A stretch of 64,000 bases of DNA, taken from the NCBI RefSeq assembly GCF_963668385.1, contig NZ_OY764327.1:5960724-6024723 (forward strand), given 5' to 3'. Positions 3,668 to 24,409 of the stretch are shown here, piece by piece. The position numbers were made by a program, and so were the translations under genes. This DNA comes from an uncultured Carboxylicivirga sp. Its GTDB lineage: Bacteria > Bacteroidota > Bacteroidia > Bacteroidales > Marinilabiliaceae. Each line of letters opens with the position of its first letter. The stretch's first letter is position 1. Under the pieces are notes generated by a model, which was given only the letters and a program-made list of their open reading frames with translations, was not told the origin of the DNA and searched no databases.

Positions 3668-6448
3668 TTAGTATTTAACTACTTTAGAATATCTTGTTTG
3701 ATCTCCATTTGACAGTTTTATCAGATAATGACCTTTGGGTAAATGTCCCAGATTAACTGAAAATTGATCCTGCTGAAATATCTTTTTTTCGACACATGCT
3801 CCGGTTAAAGCATATACTTCCACCACTTTTTCATCTTTTAAATCAGTATCTATTTGTAAGGTATTAGTAAATGGATTTGGATAGCAGAGGAATCGAGAAG
3901 AAGTCATTACTTTTTCATCTTCAATGCCTGTATTTGTATCAAAACTGGTTAGCTTTTTTTGACTAAAGATTACATAATCGCCCGGTTGAAATGTAAATGA
4001 CACATTTACATCGTCCACCTGAATACTGTCACCAGTAATGTTATTGTACCATTTTCCGGTAGTACTAAAATCAGGGCTAGCCGTTTGTCGTGTTAAACCA
4101 AAGTTAGCAACAACACGCACATCGGATCCTGACATATTCAAAGCTATTTTCTTAACAGAACCATCAACATCCATTGTAAAATCGGTTGTATTAAACACTT
4201 CTTCTCCGGTTTTAATCTCGATCATTCGTTTAAACACATTAAATAACTGCTCTCGATTTTCGTTTTGTTGATATTCCCATACAGGGGGCTTTTGAGCTAA
4301 ACGGCAACCATCACTAATGGTACCATCAGTACATCTGTTAATGCTTAAATCGAAGCCCAACTCGCCAAACTGCCAAACCATTTTTGGTCCAGGCGTACTA
4401 AAGAATACTACCGCAGCAGCTTCCATTCTACTTAATGCAGTTACCTCATCCGTTGTTTTATAATCGCCTTCAGAAGCACCATACAATTTGTTTTTATACA
4501 TTAATCGTTCTTCATCATGACTCTCCATATAATTAACCACATGAGGAGCATCCCAACCTCTTTCACGATATGATGTCCAACTCAGATCAGAAGCATATCC
4601 CATCGTTGCTTCATTATAATCATGATTAGCATTACCCCATAGCATAATACCATAGTCGGCTAATACTGTTTCTTCATCATTATCTGATAAATGCTCAAAA
4701 ATAACATAGGCATCCGATTTACGTTTCCAGATTTCACTGGTCATTCTTTCCAAAATATCAATTCGGCTTTGATCATAAGGACTTGCCCAACTACTTTCAT
4801 CATATTCAGTATTGGTAAAACCTTTGGTAAAATCGAAGCGGAAACCGTCAATTTTATATTCATTCATCCAATATGAACAGATGCTATCAACCAAGGCCTG
4901 AGTTTCGGCACTCTCGTGATTAAAATCATACCCCCATTGAGCATCCGGATTTTTCATATTATGATTTACATTGTACCAAGGGTTTTGAGCCGTTGGTTTT
5001 TCGCCATCGAAATACATTTGTACAAATGGAGACTGCCCAAACGAATGATTGAGCACCATATCCATTATTACAGCAATTCCATTTCTATGGCATTCATTGA
5101 TAAATGATTTATAATCATTTATAGTTCCGTATGCTTTATCGGCTGCAAAATAAAACGAAGGATTATAGCCCCAACTATCGTTTCCTTCAAATTCGTTAAA
5201 AGGCATTAACTCAATAGCATTAATCCCCAATCGTTTAAGATAGCTCAATGTATCAGCTACTGTTTTGATATCCTGATTTGCGGTAAAGTCGCGAATCAAC
5301 AACTCATATATAACCAATGCTTGTTTATCAGGAGCAACAAAGTCTGCATTATCCCAGGTAAAAGTATTTTCCGAAGTTGAGAATACACTAACAATACCAT
5401 CGGTTTTATTGGTTGGGTAAGGTTTTAAATCGGGATAAATGTCAGAACTGATATATTGATCGTTCCATGGATCAAGTATTTTATTAGTATAAGGATCGGC
5501 AATCTTTAAATCATCATCCATCCAATACTGATATGCATATTCGGTGTTAGGCTCTAAATTAGTCAATGTTAACCAAAAATAATCACCATCTTTTTTCATC
5601 AAGTAATCACTTTTAGGTGTCCAATCATTAAAATCGCCCATCAAATAAACAAACTCTTTATATGGCGCATAAATAAGGGCTGTAACCGAATAATTATCGA
5701 TACGATTAATACCTCTGCGAAGACCTTCAGGTCTTGTCTCTTCAACCGGAAGTCCTCGCGTATAAAAAGTAATACTCTCTTCAACCGTTTGATCACCCGA
5801 TGTTGCTACTGCTTTAATATCATACTGATCTTCAGATACTCCTTGAATGATATAGTTAATGCTATTTGAAGAGGTTGATTCAACTTCAACATCGTTAACA
5901 TAAAGCGTTAACTGATCGCTCAATATAGAATTGATTTTAACTGTTACATCATCACCAACAGGTACCAGAGTTTTATCTTGTGGCGATTCTATCGAAACGG
6001 CTAATTCTTCGTCGGACACTGATACGAAAATATCATTACCACCCGTATCTTTTCCTTCCTGTGAACCATCAGCACTACGAAAAACAAACGCCATTTTTTG
6101 AATCGTTTCTCCATCAGGCACTCCATAGAATTCTCTTATGGAAGGTGAAAGAGTTAATGTATAGACATTTTCTGATACCTTAGTCAGTTTGCAAGCATCA
6201 ATATTTTCACTCCATTCGGCTTTCACATATTTCCAATCTCCATCACCAGTACTCTGGTCGGTAATTACACCTGTATGCGCATAAATATCACCCGTAAAAT
6301 CAGCTAAACCGCCCGTTCCTCTATCTGCATAAAAAGTTATTGTAACCTCATCTCCTTCTACCGGAATTGCCGGATCGGAAGTTACCACCTGCGCCATCAT
6401 CAGCTGCGTCCAAACAACTAATAATCCTAAAATGTAAATCTTCTTCAT
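3668..6448 (-). CDS. Secreted GH13 alpha-amylase with starch-binding N-domains and type IX secretion C-domain
   Basis: 926 residues. Order of parts: signal peptide (1-19), a beta-rich CBM-like domain (about 25-145), a second E-set domain (150-230), a CBM48-like domain around 245-345 (YLMGDFNDWTP), the GH13 barrel (about 375-770), and a C-terminal sorting domain of type A (about 850-926, CYPNPFTNTLQI to the end). All GH13 catalytic signatures are present: DMVLNH at 463-468, GFRFDF with nucleophile Asp539, acid/base Glu585 (IFEHLS), and HD at 644-645. The C-terminal domain indicates export by the type IX system to the cell surface or medium, where the enzyme would cut starch-like alpha-glucan. 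Its start overlaps the stop of the upstream GH13 gene by 4 bp (ATGA), so translation is probably coupled. Confidence 0.93.
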   Translation of the reverse strand: MKKIYILGLLVVWTQLMMAQVVTSDPAIPVEGDEVTITFYADRGTGGLADFTGDIYAHTGVITDQSTGDGDWKYVKAEWSENIDACKLTKVSENVYTLTLSPSIREFYGVPDGETIQKMAFVFRSADGSQEGKDTGGNDIFVSVSDEELAVSIESPQDKTLVPVGDDVTVKINSILSDQLTLYVNDVEVESTSSNSINYIIQGVSEDQYDIKAVATSGDQTVEESITFYTRGLPVEETRPEGLRRGINRIDNYSVTALIYAPYKEFVYLMGDFNDWTPKSDYLMKKDGDYFWLTLTNLEPNTEYAYQYWMDDDLKIADPYTNKILDPWNDQYISSDIYPDLKPYPTNKTDGIVSVFSTSENTFTWDNADFVAPDKQALVIYELLIRDFTANQDIKTVADTLSYLKRLGINAIELMPFNEFEGNDSWGYNPSFYFAADKAYGTINDYKSFINECHRNGIAVIMDMVLNHSFGQSPFVQMYFDGEKPTAQNPWYNVNHNMKNPDAQWGYDFNHESAETQALVDSICSYWMNEYKIDGFRFDFTKGFTNTEYDESSWASPYDQSRIDILERMTSEIWKRKSDAYVIFEHLSDNDEETVLADYGIMLWGNANHDYNEATMGYASDLSWTSYRERGWDAPHVVNYMESHDEERLMYKNKLYGASEGDYKTTDEVTALSRMEAAAVVFFSTPGPKMVWQFGELGFDLSINRCTDGTISDGCRLAQKPPVWEYQQNENREQLFNVFKRMIEIKTGEEVFNTTDFTMDVDGSVKKIALNMSGSDVRVVANFGLTRQTASPDFSTTGKWYNNITGDSIQVDDVNVSFTFQPGDYVIFSQKKLTSFDTNTGIEDEKVMTSSRFLCYPNPFTNTLQIDTDLKDEKVVEVYALTGACVEKKIFQQDQFSVNLGHLPKGHYLIKLSNGDQTRYSKVVKY

Positions 6449-8319
6449 TTTATAAGCTTAAATGTTTTTTCATAATTTTGCTCTTTCATCCAAACCGATG
6501 CTCCTCTGGAAACTTTCCCAAACTGTAAAATCTGATTATTTGATCTTACTTTTTCTTCTGGATTCAAGACATTAATATACACCTCATCTTCATTATCTCT
6601 TTCAAATGAAGAAATGTTAATTGTAATATTTAACGAATCAGATTTTGAAAGCATCAGAAAAACACCTCCAAAATCATTCATTCCATTTCGATAAACTATA
6701 TATTGATTGCTATTTATAACAGTACTATCTATCATTGCGTCTCCTTGCAGAACAGATCTCACCTTCAACAATTTCTCAATCACATTAGGTAAGTTATCAT
6801 CAGCTTTAACCGTATCTATTTTTGTATTAAAATCGGTTTGAACAACAGGAAAAAGATGAGAATAAAAAATACAAGGCGTAGGTTGATGAAATAAAATATA
6901 GGCATACGCCATTTGCCAATCTTTTACAATCCACTTATCGTGCTCCTTACCTGTATCATGATTTTCAGCAAAAGTGATGATTCTATCTGCCGGCAACTGC
7001 GAAATAAGACCTGCATTAACCAACTGCGACATATCAAATTTTCCGGTTGAATCGTTACACATATCGGTTAAGAGTTTTTTTAGCGGAAAGTCAAATGATT
7101 GTACATTCGCTTTATTCTCCTGGTTGATTTCTTTATTCCACAAGCTAATCTGGTCAATAGAATATGTAAAAAACTCGGTAACACAGAAACCAGAATCCGG
7201 AATAACATTATTTGTCCAATCATGTACAAACTGAGGTGCTATTCCATTCACAAAATCCAAACGGGCACCATCATATTTTACCTCATTCATTAACCAATGC
7301 CCCCACGATGTCAATTGTTTTTGTACATTTTTGCTCTGATGATCAAAATCGTGACCAAACAACTTAGAATTAGCAACAATGCCTGCAGTATCCGGATAAT
7401 TCACTATGTAATCATCGGAATCAGAAGGATGAAAATCAGAATAATTCCAAGTCATTTTATTCGAAGCTGGCTTAATACCAGTGTATGAATACACTTCCCA
7501 ATTTAGTTCTTTACCACTTTCGTCAGTTATTGATGAAATAGTTAATCCGTTTGTTTGATCTCCCCAGTTCAGATTTTTATCCAATACTTCCAACTGAAGC
7601 CATAATTTCATTCGTGAATTTCGATTAATTTGATATTGAATTTGCACTTCTTTATCAACTAATCCTTCCCAATATCCATAGGGGTTGTTTTTTGATAAAA
7701 TGGGATGAAAAATTTTAGATGCATTATCCATCGACGGCTCATTCGAAACCTTTAATCGGTATCCATCCTTTATTCTCGTATTTACGGTATTTTTTAGAAA
7801 AATACTTAGTTTTTGATTGGCTTGCATTTCAACAACAAAACGCAATTCATTTACCGGGTAACCGGCTGTTTTTTTACTTCGCGTAAGAAGATAATTCTTT
7901 AAAATAGGATTCGCTTCCAGATCTTTATTCTGAAACGAATACATATGATTTAAAACAACATCGGCATACACCTCAATATTATGCTGATGAGCTTTATTGA
8001 CAAGTTGATTCAATTGCTGACGTGTTCCAAACCGGGTACTTATGGTTCCGTTCTGATTAATTTCCCCTAAATCATAATGGTCGTAGATTCCATAACCCAT
8101 ATCATAAATCCCCCAATTTCCTTTGGATGGAGGAGGCAACCAAACACCACTTATTCCAATACTTTCGACATAATCGAGTTGTGAATTAAGATGATTATAC
8201 CATATCCCTTCTTTTGCCTTATCATTAACTGGCACATCCCAATAAAAACCTTGAAGTATGACTTGAGAATGAAGCAACATATTCAGCATTAAAAAAGATA
8301 TTGATACAATTGTTCTCAT
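6445..8319 (-). CDS. Exported GH13 alpha-amylase with a large domain-B insert
   Basis: 624 residues with an N-terminal signal peptide (MRTIVSISFLMLNMLLHSQ) and no convincing lipobox. The barrel starts immediately (VILQGFYWDVP) in the style of bacterial alpha-amylases. Catalytic signatures: ADVVLNH (Asp120, His125), ARLDF with nucleophile Asp355, Glu382 in VTEFF as acid/base, and NHD at 453-455. Between regions I and II (about 130-300) lies an unusually long beta-rich insert that resembles a carbohydrate-binding module placed in domain B. All active-site residues are intact, so it should hydrolyse alpha-1,4-glucan, probably in the periplasm or at the outer membrane. It follows susE after a 61-bp gap holding a strong hairpin, and is translationally coupled to the next GH13 gene. 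Confidence 0.9.
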   Translation of the reverse strand: MRTIVSISFLMLNMLLHSQVILQGFYWDVPVNDKAKEGIWYNHLNSQLDYVESIGISGVWLPPPSKGNWGIYDMGYGIYDHYDLGEINQNGTISTRFGTRQQLNQLVNKAHQHNIEVYADVVLNHMYSFQNKDLEANPILKNYLLTRSKKTAGYPVNELRFVVEMQANQKLSIFLKNTVNTRIKDGYRLKVSNEPSMDNASKIFHPILSKNNPYGYWEGLVDKEVQIQYQINRNSRMKLWLQLEVLDKNLNWGDQTNGLTISSITDESGKELNWEVYSYTGIKPASNKMTWNYSDFHPSDSDDYIVNYPDTAGIVANSKLFGHDFDHQSKNVQKQLTSWGHWLMNEVKYDGARLDFVNGIAPQFVHDWTNNVIPDSGFCVTEFFTYSIDQISLWNKEINQENKANVQSFDFPLKKLLTDMCNDSTGKFDMSQLVNAGLISQLPADRIITFAENHDTGKEHDKWIVKDWQMAYAYILFHQPTPCIFYSHLFPVVQTDFNTKIDTVKADDNLPNVIEKLLKVRSVLQGDAMIDSTVINSNQYIVYRNGMNDFGGVFLMLSKSDSLNITINISSFERDNEDEVYINVLNPEEKVRSNNQILQFGKVSRGASVWMKEQNYEKTFKLIK

Positions 8320-14853: not shown

Positions 14854-15054
14854 AAAACATAGATTTTCTTAATTATTAATAAACATTTGATCTCCATTTC
14901 AAAGGATTTCGGTGGATTTATGACTTAGCAACTGCGCTAATACCTTTAAAACAGTGTTTATCGTATTGAAATAACATTGCAAACATAAACAGTTTGCTCG
15001 AAACCTTAAACACTTTTTAACATGATAAAACATAAATTTTCCAAATTAATTACC

Positions 15055-15066
15055 GCAATCGTTTGC
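15055..15066. promoter_or_regulatory. LacI-family operator, site A
   Basis: GCAATCGTTTGC: half-sites GCAA and TTGC around a central CG, the classic LacI/GalR-type palindrome GCAAnCGnTTGC. Identical 12-mers occur at 16604-16615 and 16669-16680. It lies about 200 bp upstream of susC and about 310 bp upstream of lacI. Confidence 0.75.
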
Positions 15067-15130
15067 GATTACGATTGCAAAAGTAATTTTATGATATAAA
15101 ACATGTCCTTCATTTTCATACCCCATCATC

Positions 15131-15142
15131 GAAAACGTTTGC
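15131..15142. promoter_or_regulatory. LacI-family operator, site B (one mismatch)
   Basis: GAAAACGTTTGC matches GCAAnCGnTTGC except at the second base. It lies 76 bp from site A, about seven helical turns, so a looped tetramer or paired dimers are possible. Confidence 0.5.
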
Positions 15143-15373
15143 GGTAATAGGAATACAGACCAACTCTATCGCTATTCCTACCGTAGGAAATGAATGAGTA
15201 ATTACCTTCAATAAGTTAAATAGCTGAATTCACTTTGTTAACATTCATTAACAAAGCAACCTATTATTCAATTCTAAAAAAAAGAGATATTGCACCCCCC
15301 TTATGAAATAAATCTATTTTACTATCTTTAACTTCTGAGCATTTGCAAGAATGCCATTTTCCAAGGTAATTAT

Positions 15374-16402: not shown

Positions 16403-16603
16403 AATTCCTAAGTATACTGTTAGCATCCTCGATTCATATCTGTTTCGAGGAATTTACACTTCCGATCCCAATACTTCACTAGGAATTATTGAAACATACC
16501 GACAGTAGTCAACTGAAGTTCTTATTATTACACTATTCAAAAATAGATCTTCTGCTCAATATTCTCAACTTTCGATAAAATCTCCACATTTTTGTAAGTT
16601 TTT

Positions 16604-16615
16604 GCAATCGTTTGC
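16604..16615. promoter_or_regulatory. LacI-family operator, site C
   Basis: GCAATCGTTTGC, identical to sites A and D, embedded in TTTTGCAATCGTTTGCAAAA so the palindrome extends further. About 400 bp upstream of the MFS transporter gene. Confidence 0.75.
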
Positions 16616-16668
16616 AAAATATTTTCTTCAATACTTAATCAAAAAAAACTAATTATTACCATCACTCC

Positions 16669-16680
16669 GCAATCGTTTGC
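16669..16680. promoter_or_regulatory. LacI-family operator, site D
   Basis: GCAATCGTTTGC again, 65 bp downstream of site C and about 80 bp upstream of the candidate -7 element at 16760. Confidence 0.75.
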
Positions 16681-16759
16681 AATCTATACTATCATTGAAA
16701 ACTACAACTTTAGAAAGCTTCATCGCAACTTTTTCAATACTACATCTTGACATATTTCT

Positions 16760-19149: not shown

Positions 19150-21462
19150 ATGAAAGAATATTTAATCCACGACGAGTGGAACATTATAGAAGAAGGATTT
19201 AATCCGGAATATCATCAATCATCAGAAAGTATCTTCAGTCTGGGTAATGGTAAAATGGGCCAACGCGCCAACTTTGAAGAAACATACACCGGCCCTACTT
19301 TGCAAGGAAGTTACGTAGCAGGAATTTACTATCCAGACAAAACCCGTGTTGGATGGTGGAAAAACGGATACCCTGAGTATTTTGCAAAAGTATTAAATAG
19401 TCCAAACTGGATTGGTATTGATGTTCAGATCAACGGACATTTTCTGGATCTTTACACTTGTAAAACCGAAAATTTTAAGCGTGTGCTAAACATGCAGGAA
19501 GGCTACCTTTATCGCGAATTTACAGCGATAATGGATGATGGAAAGAAGATAGCTGTTGAAGCCAAAAGATTCCTGAGTATGGCCGACACCGAAGTTGGCG
19601 CTATTCGCTATGCGGTTACCCCCTTAAACTTCACTGGTAAAATTTCTTTTACTCCTTATGTTGATGGAGATGTAGAGAATGAAGATTCAAACTACGACGA
19701 AAAGTTTTGGAATCTGATAGAAATGGAAGCCCATGCCGGCGAAGCTTTTTTAGTTACTGAAACAAAAAAACTTGGGTTCAGAGCAGGATATGGTATGATG
19801 TATAAAACCTTTATTCAAGGTACTGAGGTTAGCATCAAGCCCGAGATAATGAAAAAAGCTGCCTGGGTTGGCAACCGTGTTGAAAAAGAAGTAAAAGAAG
19901 GTGAGCAGTTCACAATTGAGAAAATTGTAGGCGTTACCAGCTCTCTTAATTATAGTAAGAACGATATTTTGGTAGCTGCTAAAAACTCAACTAAATACGG
20001 CTTTGATAAAGGTTTTGACACCTTATTTGAAGCTCATTCAAATGAGTGGAAGCAAAAATGGGTACATAGCGATATTAAAATTGAAGGTGATATTGCTGCT
20101 CAACAAGGTATTCGTTTTAATATTTTTCATCTTAACCAAACATACACTGGCGAAGATGAGCGCTTAAATGTAGGACCTAAAGGATTTACAGGAGAAAAAT
20201 ATGGAGGAACTACTTACTGGGATACTGAAGCTTACTGTATACCATTCTTCATTTCTACAGCTCCGTCGAATGTTACACGAAATTTACTAATATATAGGTA
20301 TAAGCAATTAAACAAAGCGATTGAAAATGCACAAAAGCTTGGTTTTAAAGATGGTGCAGCCCTCTATCCTATGGTTACTATAAATGGAGAAGAGTGTCAT
20401 AACGAGTGGGAGATTACCTTTGAAGAGATTCACCGAAATGGTGCCATTGCATTTGCTATCCATAACTACATTCGCCATACAAATGATTTTAAATATCTCG
20501 AAGAATATGGCTTAGAAGTATTATTAGGTATTTCTCGTTTCTGGAGCCAACGCGTAAACTGGTCAGGCGAAAAGAAAAAGTACGTTATGCTAGGTGTTAC
20601 CGGCCCTAATGAGTACGAAAACAACATCAACAACAACTGGTATACCAATAAAATGGCTACCTGGTGTATGAAATATACCACAAAAGCATTTGAAATTGTT
20701 AAGCAAAACAACCCTGAAGCATATAATGCCATTGTTGCTAAAACAAACTTCAATGCAGATGAAGAACTTGCCAAATGGAAAGACATCACCGATAACATGT
20801 ACTTCCCTTTCAACGAGGAACTGAACGTATTTATGCAGCAAGATGGCTACATGGACAAGGAACATATTTTGGTGAAAGATCTGGATCCTAAGCAACGCCC
20901 TATCAACCAGCATTGGTCATGGGACCGAATTTTGCGAAGCTGCTACATCAAACAAGCCGATACATTACAAGGTATTTATGTTTTAGAGGACGAATTCGAT
21001 TTGGAAACCATCAAACGCAATTTTGACTTTTACGAACCTCGTACTGTTCATGAGTCATCATTATCGCCATGCGTACATGCCATTTTAGCAGCTAAAATAG
21101 GCGCTGTTGATAAAGCATATGAAATGTATTTACGCACATCGCGATTGGACATTGATGATTATAACCATGAGGCACACGAAGGATTGCACATTACTTCGAT
21201 GGCCGGAACATGGATGTCGGTTGTTGAAGGCTTTGGTGGAAAACGTGTTTACGATGGTAAATTGTATTTAAACCCTATTGTACCCCAACAATGGACAAAA
21301 TACGCCTTCCGCCTTCGATTCCTGAACAGTGATATGGAAGTAATTGTATCAAAAGATAAAGTGGAAGTCGTTTCTCATTCAGACAATACTATTGAGTTAT
21401 ATGTATACGACGAATTGATAACCGTTGCCCCACATCAAACGGCTTCGGTAAGTGCTAAATAA
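19150..21462 (+). CDS. Maltose phosphorylase (GH65)
   Basis: 770 residues, the usual length for GH65. The N-terminal beta-sandwich (about 1-270) is followed by the (alpha/alpha)6 barrel (about 320-690) and a small C-terminal beta domain. The catalytic acid is Glu488 in VTGPNEYENNINNNWYTN, matching Glu487 of Lactobacillus brevis maltose phosphorylase. GGTTYWDTEAYCIPFF and the HESSLSPCVHA phosphate-binding segment are also present. The enzyme would split maltose with inorganic phosphate into glucose and beta-glucose 1-phosphate in the cytoplasm; no signal peptide is present. Kojibiose or trehalose specificity cannot be strictly excluded, but pgmB and the amylases make maltose most likely. Confidence 0.92.
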   Translation: MKEYLIHDEWNIIEEGFNPEYHQSSESIFSLGNGKMGQRANFEETYTGPTLQGSYVAGIYYPDKTRVGWWKNGYPEYFAKVLNSPNWIGIDVQINGHFLDLYTCKTENFKRVLNMQEGYLYREFTAIMDDGKKIAVEAKRFLSMADTEVGAIRYAVTPLNFTGKISFTPYVDGDVENEDSNYDEKFWNLIEMEAHAGEAFLVTETKKLGFRAGYGMMYKTFIQGTEVSIKPEIMKKAAWVGNRVEKEVKEGEQFTIEKIVGVTSSLNYSKNDILVAAKNSTKYGFDKGFDTLFEAHSNEWKQKWVHSDIKIEGDIAAQQGIRFNIFHLNQTYTGEDERLNVGPKGFTGEKYGGTTYWDTEAYCIPFFISTAPSNVTRNLLIYRYKQLNKAIENAQKLGFKDGAALYPMVTINGEECHNEWEITFEEIHRNGAIAFAIHNYIRHTNDFKYLEEYGLEVLLGISRFWSQRVNWSGEKKKYVMLGVTGPNEYENNINNNWYTNKMATWCMKYTTKAFEIVKQNNPEAYNAIVAKTNFNADEELAKWKDITDNMYFPFNEELNVFMQQDGYMDKEHILVKDLDPKQRPINQHWSWDRILRSCYIKQADTLQGIYVLEDEFDLETIKRNFDFYEPRTVHESSLSPCVHAILAAKIGAVDKAYEMYLRTSRLDIDDYNHEAHEGLHITSMAGTWMSVVEGFGGKRVYDGKLYLNPIVPQQWTKYAFRLRFLNSDMEVIVSKDKVEVVSHSDNTIELYVYDELITVAPHQTASVSAK

Positions 21463-21523: not shown

Positions 21524-21550
21524 AAAAGGAGTCGATTGACTCCTTTTTTT
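21524..21550 (+). terminator. Rho-independent terminator after the GH65 gene
   Basis: AAAAGGAGTC (21524-21533), loop GATT, and GACTCCTTTT (21538-21547) followed by more T residues. A perfect 10-bp stem and T tract. It separates the GH65 operon from the following GH13-like gene. Confidence 0.88.
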
Positions 21551-21633
21551 ATTAATATTACAGCGGGGAATATTATTTACATTTTCAGTATATTTAACTA
21601 TATTATTGAAAAAGAGCAACAACCGATTTAACC

Positions 21634-23478
21634 ATGAATCAATTTGTAAGAAACGTAACCGTTATTGTAATATTAGCTTTTGTTTCAGTCTTAACCTTTG
21701 CCAAAAACATAGACGTTAATGTGTTTCCTGGCAACTGGTGGACTAAAATGAAAACGAACACCATTACTCTTACAGCTTCAGCAGAATTTACAGGCCAAGC
21801 ATTTGCTACCATCAACTATCCGGGCATCAAAATACTTAAAACTTATCCGGGCGAAAGCAACCATTACTTATTTATTGACATTGAAATTACTAAACAAGCC
21901 ACTGCCGGTTCAGCACCGATTACATTTCGCGATTCGAAAGGCAATTCTGGTTCGTTTAATTTTACCATTCAAGAAAGAAATACTTATAAGCCCCAAGCCT
22001 TAACCAATCAAGATATCATTTACCAAATAGTTGCCGATCGTTTTAGAAATGGCAATACCAAAAACGACAACATTAACGGTTACTTCGAAGTTAGCGATCG
22101 ACTTAATCCTACGGGAATTCACGGTGGCGACTTTCAAGGTATTACTCAATCGATTGATTACATCAAAAGCTTTGGTTTTACTTGTATCGATATTCTTCCC
22201 GTGTACGAAAGTAACCTGATGGCTTTATCTTATCAGCGAAACGGTATAACCAACAGCTACAAAATTGATAAAAGATTAGGAAGTTTAAAGGATTATCAGG
22301 AACTGATTAATAAGTGCCATTTGAATAATATCAAGGTTACACAAACGATGGTTTTTCATCAGTTAGGTAAATATAATGAGTGGAATCAAATTCCTCCTTT
22401 TACATCCTTTTTTCATAATCCGGAACTAAAATATTCAACAGATCAAAAACTCATACCATCCGATCCATACGCCTCTGAACACGATAAAGATCTAGCTTTG
22501 GGAACCTGGCAAGAATTAAATATGCCCGCTGTTAACCAAAGAGATGAGCGTTTACAAAAGCAACTTATTCAAAATTGTATCTGGTGGTTGGAAACATCAA
22601 AGGCCGACATTCTTAAAATTGATGAAATCAATCGCAACTCACCTGATTTTTTAGCTAAGCTTTTTAAAGCTATTTACAGAGAATATCCATCCTTATCAAT
22701 CATATCTGACCACTCAGCCAGCGACACTAACATTAACTTTTGGCAGGATCTAGCCATTGATGCAGGTTTTAATAAAACACAGATTCACATTAGTGATTAT
22801 CCGCTAGCTTTGGCTTTAGACGATGCCTTTTCTGTGTATAGAGAAGGTGATGAAGGATTGCAGGATCTTTACGCAACAGTCACCGAAGATTATAAATATG
22901 CCAATCCAATGGGTAATGTAGTGATGGCCGACAATCATCAGTTAACACGTATGTTTTCCAATGCCGATAAGGACTTTAATCAGGCAAAAATGATGCTAGG
23001 TTATCTATTAACTACACGAGGTATACCAAGTATATTCTATGGAACAGAGTGGCTTTTGGATGGCACTATCAATAAAGGAAAAGGATTTGTTCGAAAAGAT
23101 TTTCCAGGAGGATGGCCGGGTGATACTAAAAATGGTTTTACTCAAAAAGGCTTCTCGATTCAAGAGAATGATTTTTTCAATTATTTTACCCGATTGGTCA
23201 ACTGGCGGAAGGAAAATCAATCGTTATTTGATGGAAAATTTATTCAGTTTGCACCCAAAGATGGCATCTATGCCTACTATCGTAAAAAAGATAGCAATGC
23301 CGCTTTTATTCTGATTAACAACACTGAATCAACTATTCGAATCGACCAAAATACCTATAAAGAAATATTAGACCAATACAGCAAAGGATATGATATTGTA
23401 TCAGAATCAACCTTCGACGATTTCTCTAACTTATTACTAGGAGCCAAATCAATCCTTATCCTTCAATTAAAAAATTAA
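21634..23478 (+). CDS. Exported GH13-like protein with degraded active site (SusA/neopullulanase-related pseudoenzyme)
   Basis: 614 residues with a signal peptide (about 1-23), an N-terminal beta domain (about 25-115) like that of SusA/cyclomaltodextrinases, a barrel (about 120-530) and a C-terminal beta domain. The fold markers IIYQIVADRFRNGN (129-141) and RGIPSIFYGTE (462-472) are conserved. The catalytic regions are not. Region I reads VTQTMVFHQ where an Asp and Asn-His are expected. Region II keeps only Asp330 (ILKID, with Lys328 for the usual Arg). The acid/base Glu is Asp359 (IISDH). Region IV reads DNHQ with Gln436 instead of Asp. Hydrolysis is therefore unlikely; glycan binding or sensing is possible. 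The gene is intact and follows the GH65 operon after a terminator. Confidence 0.88.
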   Translation: MNQFVRNVTVIVILAFVSVLTFAKNIDVNVFPGNWWTKMKTNTITLTASAEFTGQAFATINYPGIKILKTYPGESNHYLFIDIEITKQATAGSAPITFRDSKGNSGSFNFTIQERNTYKPQALTNQDIIYQIVADRFRNGNTKNDNINGYFEVSDRLNPTGIHGGDFQGITQSIDYIKSFGFTCIDILPVYESNLMALSYQRNGITNSYKIDKRLGSLKDYQELINKCHLNNIKVTQTMVFHQLGKYNEWNQIPPFTSFFHNPELKYSTDQKLIPSDPYASEHDKDLALGTWQELNMPAVNQRDERLQKQLIQNCIWWLETSKADILKIDEINRNSPDFLAKLFKAIYREYPSLSIISDHSASDTNINFWQDLAIDAGFNKTQIHISDYPLALALDDAFSVYREGDEGLQDLYATVTEDYKYANPMGNVVMADNHQLTRMFSNADKDFNQAKMMLGYLLTTRGIPSIFYGTEWLLDGTINKGKGFVRKDFPGGWPGDTKNGFTQKGFSIQENDFFNYFTRLVNWRKENQSLFDGKFIQFAPKDGIYAYYRKKDSNAAFILINNTESTIRIDQNTYKEILDQYSKGYDIVSESTFDDFSNLLLGAKSILILQLKN

Positions 23479-23752
23479 TGGTTTGAAATAGATGCAGCTA
23501 TTGTCAAAAGATTCCAACAACGCTGTTCGATGACATCGGAAGCCATTGTCGTATTTTTCCAACAAGCCAGTCAAATATTTCGGGGGAATGACTACATCTG
23601 TTCCAAGTTCAGCATATTGATTGAGAAAAGGGACTAAAAGCAGACGTACGAAAATTTACGATTCTTCTTTATCACAGAGCATTCACCCACCTTAAACTTT
23701 ATGGGCTAAGACAAAAATTGTATTTTTAAGCAAATACTAAAACTACAAAAAG

Positions 23753-24409
23753 ATGTCTGACACTAAAAAAATTGCAGTTATACTTTCGGGTTGTGGCGTT
23801 TACGATGGTGCCGAAATTCACGAATCGGTTTTAACAATGCTTGCTATTGCCAAACAAGGTGCTGAATATACCCTTTTTGCACCAGATGTAAAACAACATC
23901 ACGTTGTAAACCATGTTACCGGCGATGAAATGAGCCAAGAAAGAAATGTATTGGTTGAGTCAGCTCGTATTGCCCGAGGAGCCATCAATCCACTTAGCGA
24001 TTACAAAGCTGCCAATTTCGATGCTCTTGTTTTACCAGGCGGATTTGGTGCAGCTAAAAATCTGAGTTCATTTGCATTTGAAGGACCTGATAGTACTGTT
24101 GAAGCCGAAACATTAAGAGCCTTAAAAGACACACACACTGCTCAAAAACCAATTGGCGCCTTATGCATTGCTCCGGCTATTGTAGCCAAAGCACTAGGAA
24201 ATATTGAGGTAACCATTGGGCAAGATGCCGGCACTGCCGAAGCTATTGAAAAGATGGGTGCAACTCACAAATTAACCAACCATGGCGAAGTGGTTATCGA
24301 TATCAAAAACAAAATTGCCACCACTCCATGCTACATGTTAGATGCCAATATTATTCAAATTGCTCAAGGAGCCGAAAATGTGGTAAAAGCAACCATTGAT
24401 ATGATTTAA
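23753..24409 (+). CDS. elbB: ElbB-type glyoxalase/DJ-1 family protein
   Basis: 218 residues, the normal length. The opening KIAVILSGCGVYDGAEIHESV, the central ARIARGAINPLSDY and VLPGGFGAAKNLSSFAF, and the nucleophile elbow GALCIAPAI are diagnostic of ElbB (formerly enhancing lycopene biosynthesis protein 2), in the DJ-1/PfpI superfamily. Glyoxalase activity has been reported for the Escherichia coli protein; its physiological role is unclear. It is a single gene between two terminators, in front of the convergent glutamine synthetase. Confidence 0.93.
   Translation: MSDTKKIAVILSGCGVYDGAEIHESVLTMLAIAKQGAEYTLFAPDVKQHHVVNHVTGDEMSQERNVLVESARIARGAINPLSDYKAANFDALVLPGGFGAAKNLSSFAFEGPDSTVEAETLRALKDTHTAQKPIGALCIAPAIVAKALGNIEVTIGQDAGTAEAIEKMGATHKLTNHGEVVIDIKNKIATTPCYMLDANIIQIAQGAENVVKATIDMI

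Follow-up and report, generated by a model that had tools for sequence, protein, structure and literature searches.

The gene at positions 21634..23478 on the + strand of the window, by which we mean the whole 64 kb stretch of DNA analysed here, encodes psGH13, a degenerate GH13_46-type protein of 614 amino acids (the coordinates include the stop codon) recognised from its open reading frame, its Pfam domains and its match to solved structures. Judged from sequence, psGH13 is a selected pseudoenzyme lineage of single origin, as 29 degenerate genes fall into one clade and 28 of them are full-length, which is more than chance or decay would be expected to leave. Our preferred reading, to which we would give a probability of roughly 0.45, is that psGH13 acts as a secreted, non-catalytic binding protein with a rebuilt pocket and its own transcription unit, following one early loss of catalysis. 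According to this model, a single loss of glycosidase catalysis would have occurred in a GH13_46-type ancestor when the window's bacterial family was young, and its descendants, psGH13 among them, would have been maintained as non-catalytic proteins that are secreted, most likely to the periplasm, and transcribed as a unit of their own. The N-terminal, barrel and C-terminal domains would have been retained and the former -1 subsite would now form a different polar pocket, typically composed of T238, H242, Q or K at 243, K328 and D359, that may hold a ligand without cutting it.

psGH13 retains a GH13_46-type architecture

The psGH13 frame runs uninterrupted for 614 codons from an ATG at 21634 to a stop codon ending at 23478. 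The N-terminus of the protein carries a hydrophobic stretch without a lipobox, as do those of the other 28 members of the degenerate clade (29/29), and approximately the first 24 residues (21634..21705, + strand; the boundary was placed by eye) probably constitute a signal peptide, not of the lipoprotein kind. The protein is thus predicted to be secreted, most likely to the periplasm; SusA is placed in the periplasm of B. thetaiotaomicron by PMC12578637. Three Pfam domains follow on the + strand, all of them exceeding their cut-offs: the N-terminal domain Cyc-maltodext_N (PF09087, residues 30-116, 21721..21981), the GH13 barrel domain Alpha-amylase (PF00128, residues 131-481, 22024..23076) and the C-terminal domain Cyc-maltodext_C (PF10438, residues 537-611, 23242..23466). 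Comparison of psGH13 with NCBIfam returned only matches far under the cut-offs.

The best solved relative of psGH13 is the cyclomaltodextrinase of Flavobacterium sp. 92 (1h3g), which it matches with an E value of 5.5e-95 over query residues 31-612, and the next solved match, after mutant entries of the same enzyme, is the neopullulanase SusA (9fyz). Both proteins are members of subfamily GH13_46 as defined in PMC9781549, and psGH13 has the layout which that source gives as a marker of the subfamily, with Cyc-maltodext N and C domains flanking a GH13 barrel. psGH13 shares these three domains and full-length homology with the two solved proteins, together with a second GH13_46 marker, the adjacent Trp-Trp pair between regions V and II (residues 317-318), which occurs in 29/29 degenerate members. 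On the other hand, several markers of the 1h3g enzyme and SusA are lost in psGH13 in addition to the catalytic triad discussed below. The MPDLN motif of region V reads MPAVN, with A299 in place of its Asp, a residue that is absent in 29/29 degenerate members and present in 64/64 intact rows of our residue table. The aromatic Tyr-X-Tyr end of region II is not found (LKIDEINRN), nor is the Glu that follows the proton donor (ISDHS), although this second Glu is missing from many intact relatives too. These comparisons support the classification of psGH13 as a putative GH13 pseudoenzyme of the SusA/cyclomaltodextrinase type.

The window contains two other GH13 genes, both on the - strand, at 3668-6448 and 6445-8319. 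These overlap by four bases, their catalytic motifs are kept as judged by eye in alignments to solved amylases, and the gene at 3668-6448 ends with a Por-secretion sorting domain.

Two of ten active-site residues are kept in psGH13

The ten positions of the GH13 -1 subsite considered here, and the role of each, are those generally known for GH13 enzymes. In the alignment of psGH13 with 1h3g, H181 is replaced by Q201, Y183 by N203, D218 by T238, S222 by H242, H223 by Q243, R309 by K328, E340 by D359 and D418 by Q436, and two of the ten residues are kept (D311 as D330 and H417 as H435). On the + strand of the window, these changes map to Q201-R-N203 (22234..22242), where intact relatives have H-G-Y or, rarely, H-T-Y; to region I, VTQTMVFHQ (22336..22362), in which the Asp, Asn and His have become T238, H242 and Q243; to region II (22615..22623), in which Arg has become K328 and the nucleophile position D330 is kept here and not clade-wide; to region III (22708..22710), where the acid/base Glu is D359; and to region IV (22939..22941), where the transition-state stabiliser Asp is Q436. 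Hence one member of the catalytic Asp/Glu/Asp set is retained (D330) and the other two are replaced (D359, Q436), and psGH13 would not be expected to hydrolyse.

The initial annotation had made the same calls at residues 330, 359 and 436 and had described region I as destroyed, and the alignment bears it out on both counts (the region I Asp and His being replaced by T238 and Q243). The catalytic losses it reported are real, but the damage extends further than it had stated, to positions 201, 203 and 328. Its stress on Asp330 as the surviving nucleophile was misplaced, as position 330 is Glu in 16, Asp in 11, Tyr in one and Cys in one of the 29 degenerate members, the Tyr occurring in an orthologue (G006) that is 65% identical to psGH13.

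The initial annotation had also considered that an intact Asp/Glu/Asp triad might be found at shifted positions, in which case psGH13 would still be a glycosidase. No such triad is present in the sequence alignment with 1h3g, which is free of one-sided gaps within 8 columns of nine of the ten sites and has a single gap column near the tenth (position 359), and the 65%-identical orthologue lacks the Asp that the window has at position 330. We found no point in support of this explanation, which the alignment appears to rule out and which we regard as extremely improbable.

The degenerate genes form a single clade

A search of 71 genomes of the window's family yielded 93 matches to psGH13 at E <= 1e-60, all 93 of which were classified. 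A total of 29 matches, from 29 of the 71 genomes and 12 of the 21 genera, are degenerate GH13_46-type genes, and the remaining 64 are intact. Among named genomes, the one relative detected is that of C. linearis (67% identity, L045), which NCBI assigns to the family Marinilabiliaceae. We compiled a residue table of 29 degenerate and 64 intact rows, the latter consisting of 58 family genes, five genes from other families in the order and 1h3g. Of the ten -1 subsite residues, 0-4 survive in each degenerate row and 9-10 in each intact row, with nothing between. Six family matches that were at first unclassified, and that lie outside this table, are intact with 10/10.

Outside the family, 95/95 sequences (27 + 40 + 28) are intact with 10/10. 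They comprise the best-scoring matches to a profile built from 18 degenerate sequences, together with another 40, and two of them are also among the five order rows of the table. As matches were present in 157 of the 295 genomes of the order and 62 of the 295 genomes of the class, and these sequences represent part of them, further degenerate lineages may exist elsewhere in the order or class. The viral contigs scanned for relatives of psGH13 gave no match.

In a maximum-likelihood tree of 93 rows (29 degenerate sequences, 63 intact genes and 1h3g), the 29 degenerate sequences form one clade with an SH-aLRT value of 100, and the clade persists after deletion of 84 columns that surround the active site. 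When 61 of the 93 rows were bootstrapped, with 32 of the 64 intact rows left out, bootstrap and SH-aLRT support for the degenerate clade was 100/100. The 29 sequences also remain one clade when 93 order and class sequences are added (a set that leaves out four duplicate or in-family loci), in a tree that does not resolve where the clade attaches among the intact genes. Independent decay in several genera is ruled out by this single clade, which is recovered without the pocket columns as well.

psGH13 is under selection but evolves faster than its neighbours

Full-length frames of 602-627 amino acids are found in 28 of the 29 degenerate members, across 12 genera. The exception, in G061 (L080:4460-6387), is divided into two frames by a frame change near residue 438, which may reflect either a real loss or an assembly error. 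For two pairs of degenerate genes we obtained omega values of 0.100 (G011/G009) and 0.063 (G019/G071), compared with 0.053 and 0.022 for the intact GH13_46-type genes of the same genome pairs; these estimates represent two of 11 degenerate pairs, the other nine being saturated or nearly so at silent sites. The 28 full-length frames, together with the low omega in two pairs, led us to reject a sequencing error or a pseudogene. Along with the likely signal peptide, they agree with the earlier view that the frame is selected rather than decaying.

At the same time, psGH13 evolves faster than both its surroundings and its intact paralogue, the GH13_46-type gene SusA2, which is located in the same genome far from the maltodextrin locus (L084:7868-9745; G000:C1:913373-915211). 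The identity of psGH13 to four same-genus orthologues is 67, 65, 55 and 52%, whereas in the same four genomes it is 89, 89, 84 and 79% for the maltose phosphorylase, 83, 80, 77 and 75% for ElbB and 87, 86, 78 and 73% for intact SusA2; the MFS gene is almost as divergent as psGH13 in one of the four (60%). In addition, psGH13 is missing from 3 of 14 same-genus genomes, and it is therefore dispensable somewhere. Divergence exceeding that of maltose phosphorylase and SusA2, absence from these three genomes and the split gene in G061 are all features that a decaying pseudogene or relaxed leftover could show. We nevertheless consider decay very unlikely in view of the open full-length frames in 12 genera, the omega of 0.06-0.10 in two pairs and the N-terminal hydrophobic stretch in every member of the clade.

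The former -1 subsite may form a partly conserved polar pocket

Several of the residues that replace the catalytic machinery are themselves conserved in the degenerate clade. T238 is found in 22/29 members, H242 in 23/29 and K328 in 21/29, position 243 is Gln in 19/29 and Lys in 9/29, and position 359 is Asp in 22/29, with Ala in five, Ser in one and Thr in one. Position 436 varies freely and is Asp or Glu in 4/29; acidic residues otherwise occur at position 330 in 27/29, at 359 in 22/29 and at 201 in 14/29. Asp433, two residues before H435, is Asp in 29/29. When site rates are ranked within the clade, positions 242, 243, 359, 238, 328 and 435 fall between the 10th and 24th percentiles and position 201 at the 40th, while positions 330, 436, 203 and 299 fall between the 55th and 73rd. 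Averaged over the ten positions of the pocket, the rate is 0.65, compared with 1.02 for random sets of ten, 3.6% of draws being as low, and this mean is about 10 times the value for the intact genes (0.06), each rate being relative to its own set. We read these patterns as a loss of the catalytic constraint, with the new polar pocket being, as far as substitution patterns can tell, partly constrained.

This constraint is moderate and differs between subclades. The 7 of the 29 members with Ala, Ser or Thr at position 359 have Lys at 243 and Glu or Asp at 201 in every case. Given these differences, neither a single ligand nor a binding function need be common to the whole clade.

The pattern of conservation bears on two further explanations for the rebuilt pocket. 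The first is that psGH13 has become a neofunctionalised enzyme whose pocket carries out other, non-GH13 chemistry, a proposal with which the conservation of T238, H242, K328 and D359 and the invariance of Asp433 would agree. However, an acidic residue is invariant at none of the ten pocket positions tested, and we judge new chemistry of this kind to be quite improbable. The second is an ancestral conversion within one family, whereby the new, partly conserved pocket accommodates a ligand that is not maltodextrin, either binding it or converting it without hydrolysis; this broader proposal we regard as doubtful rather than improbable.

psGH13 appears to be transcribed separately from the maltodextrin operon

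The gene order in the window is susC (- strand), lacI, MFS, beta-phosphoglucomutase, GH65, psGH13 and elbB, all names except elbB having been assigned by eye and from the initial annotation. The GH65-type maltose phosphorylase gene (19150..21462, + strand), likewise named in this way rather than from a family library, precedes an intrinsic terminator at 21524..21554 on the + strand, which consists of a 10-bp stem (21524-21547) followed by a T run and has a predicted energy of -13.1 kcal/mol (z -5.3). In 10 of the 11 same-genus carriers of psGH13, a strict search detects a terminator in the corresponding position, and in the eleventh (L059) it can be recognised by eye, with a G-U pair; in G022, which belongs to another genus, a terminator is also found shortly before psGH13. 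As a general scan of the window gave 8 terminator sites, this one among them, compared with 6.7 in shuffled sequences, and hence no excess, our argument for this terminator is based on how it folds and on its conservation. Some read-through past it may occur. A sigma-70-like site at 21576-21604 was given no weight, with 29 such sites found compared with 36.4 expected in shuffles.

A motif scan identified four LacI-operator-like palindromes (no strand assigned) around lacI, two between susC and lacI (15053-15068 and 15129-15144) and two between lacI and the MFS gene (16603-16616 and 16667-16682). Their consensus, derived from the hits of this analysis, is near CCGCAAACGTTTGCGG, and no further copies were found in the window at the mismatch limits used. 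We propose these four palindromes as a candidate operator of the maltodextrin regulon. Within 380 bp upstream of lacI, the palindrome matches at 12-16 of 16 positions in 8 of the 9 psGH13-carrying genomes of the genus for which lacI lies in the stretch read (9 of 16 in L049), and upstream of the MFS gene it matches at 13-15 of 16 in 8 of 11 genomes (8-9 in L048, L055 and L059). For psGH13, the upstream stretch gives a best match of 8-11 of 16 in 11/11 genomes, a score that does not exceed the shuffle maxima of 11-12 in any of them; in the window the best match is 11, the same as the maximum after shuffling, and falls within the GH65 gene.

With a terminator before it and no operator found, psGH13 lies beside the operon and looks like a separate unit, probably with its own promoter. 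The terminator and operator scans led us to reject psGH13 as a likely member of the maltodextrin operon.

The genomic neighbourhood of psGH13 differs between genera

In the window's genus, psGH13 lies directly downstream of GH65 in all 11 genomes that carry it. In the three genomes of the genus that have the operon and lack psGH13 (G003, G008 and G012; L217, L218 and L219), no recognisable psGH13 remnant was found after the maltose phosphorylase gene. psGH13 is also located near the operon in G022 and G014, where the operon still holds an intact SusA; in several genera outside the window's own, an intact SusA comes after the maltose phosphorylase gene, whereas the window's operon has none. In 9 of the 11 other genera, no maltodextrin-operon gene was seen beside psGH13 in the stretches available, some of which are short. 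Furthermore, when maltose phosphorylase was searched for at E <= 1e-100 in 20 selected genomes, including 12 psGH13 carriers, three of these 12 had no match (G065, G066 and G023, the last with a genome completeness of 93%).

These observations bear on the earlier proposals that psGH13 is retained in the maltodextrin locus and may bind or sense maltodextrins there. The position of psGH13 right after the maltose phosphorylase gene in every same-genus carrier, and its proximity to the operon in G022 and G014, agree with such a role. Acarbose is a mimic of maltooligosaccharides. According to PMC11633381, acarbose is bound at a single site by the catalytically inert D331N variant of SusA and at two sites by the wild type, so that a dead GH13_46 protein can bind. 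Against a role in the window's locus are the conserved terminator before psGH13, the failure to find the operator palindrome upstream of the gene in 11 genomes, the different contexts in 9 of 11 other genera and the psGH13 genomes in which no maltose phosphorylase match was found. The gene is adjacent to the locus, these features do not support its functional retention there, and a maltodextrin binder or sensor of the locus seems to us distinctly unlikely. Maltodextrin itself is a possible ligand of psGH13, for which these data provide no specific support.

The main rival to the binding-protein reading is that psGH13 is a regulatory or scaffold subunit, which assembles into mixed oligomers with an intact GH13_46 enzyme, or with a different GH13 protein, and tunes its partner in the way that plant ISA2 does with ISA1. 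Such a role would have precedents in the SusA of two Bacteroides, described as a dimer in PMC11633381, and in ISA2, described in PMC12510319 as a non-catalytic GH13 paralogue bound by ISA1; a potential partner is available in the intact GH13_46-type paralogue elsewhere in psGH13's own genome. However, this paralogue is unlinked to psGH13, and the model is weakened, with regard to GH13_46-type partners only, by four genomes in which psGH13 is the sole full-length GH13_46-type match (G007, G028, G065 and G066, with genome completeness of 100, 95, 92 and 86%, respectively). We therefore consider a partner subunit unlikely and favour the secreted binding protein.

Downstream of psGH13 in the window is elbB (23753..24409, + strand), which encodes a DJ-1/PfpI glyoxalase that exceeds the cut-off of NCBIfam NF008747. 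In 14 of the 29 loci and 7 of the 12 genera (window 21634-24409, L046-L050, L053, L056, L062, L077, L081, L082, L083 and L109), a gene of this type lies downstream of psGH13 in the same orientation, no more than 0.9 kb away. Six of the 14 gaps contain an opposite-strand frame, seven are of 136 bp or less and one is a 4-bp overlap. The intervening frame is LigT-like by Pfam in L046 and L056, and a search for a remnant of such a gene in the window gave nothing convincing. In six same-genus genomes of a second subgroup, elbB is located elsewhere. We know of no reason that would link a secreted GH13-like protein with a DJ-1-type protein without an evident signal.

psGH13 and other non-catalytic GH13 proteins

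GH13 proteins without enzyme function include the animal heavy chains rBAT and 4F2hc (GH13_35 and GH13_34), as described in PMC11239784. These are heavy subunits of amino acid transporters, whereas psGH13 is a predicted secreted bacterial protein that is related to a different subfamily. Plant ISA2 is presented in PMC12510319 as an old, selected, non-catalytic GH13 paralogue, with at least four of five catalytic-site residues changed in every member examined there. psGH13 resembles ISA2 in being an apparently non-catalytic GH13 paralogue that is old and under selection. Unlike ISA2, a plant protein that partners ISA1, psGH13 is also present in genomes lacking an intact GH13_46-type paralogue. 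In the literature searched, which covered few subscription journals, we found no account of a GH13_46-type pseudoenzyme lineage from bacteria, and the main text of PMC9781549 contains no word beginning with lack, incomplete or inactive.

As the Pfam Alpha-amylase model is matched over its cut-off by psGH13 and by the seven relatives checked, automatic CAZyme counts would probably miscount these genes. If the pocket does serve a ligand other than maltodextrin, psGH13 would be a new case of bacteria using the GH13 fold for something other than glycosidase activity. With its one origin, its many members and the gap between the 0-4 active-site residues kept in degenerate genes and the 9-10 kept in intact ones, the lineage offers a natural series with which to ask why a dead glycosidase is kept.
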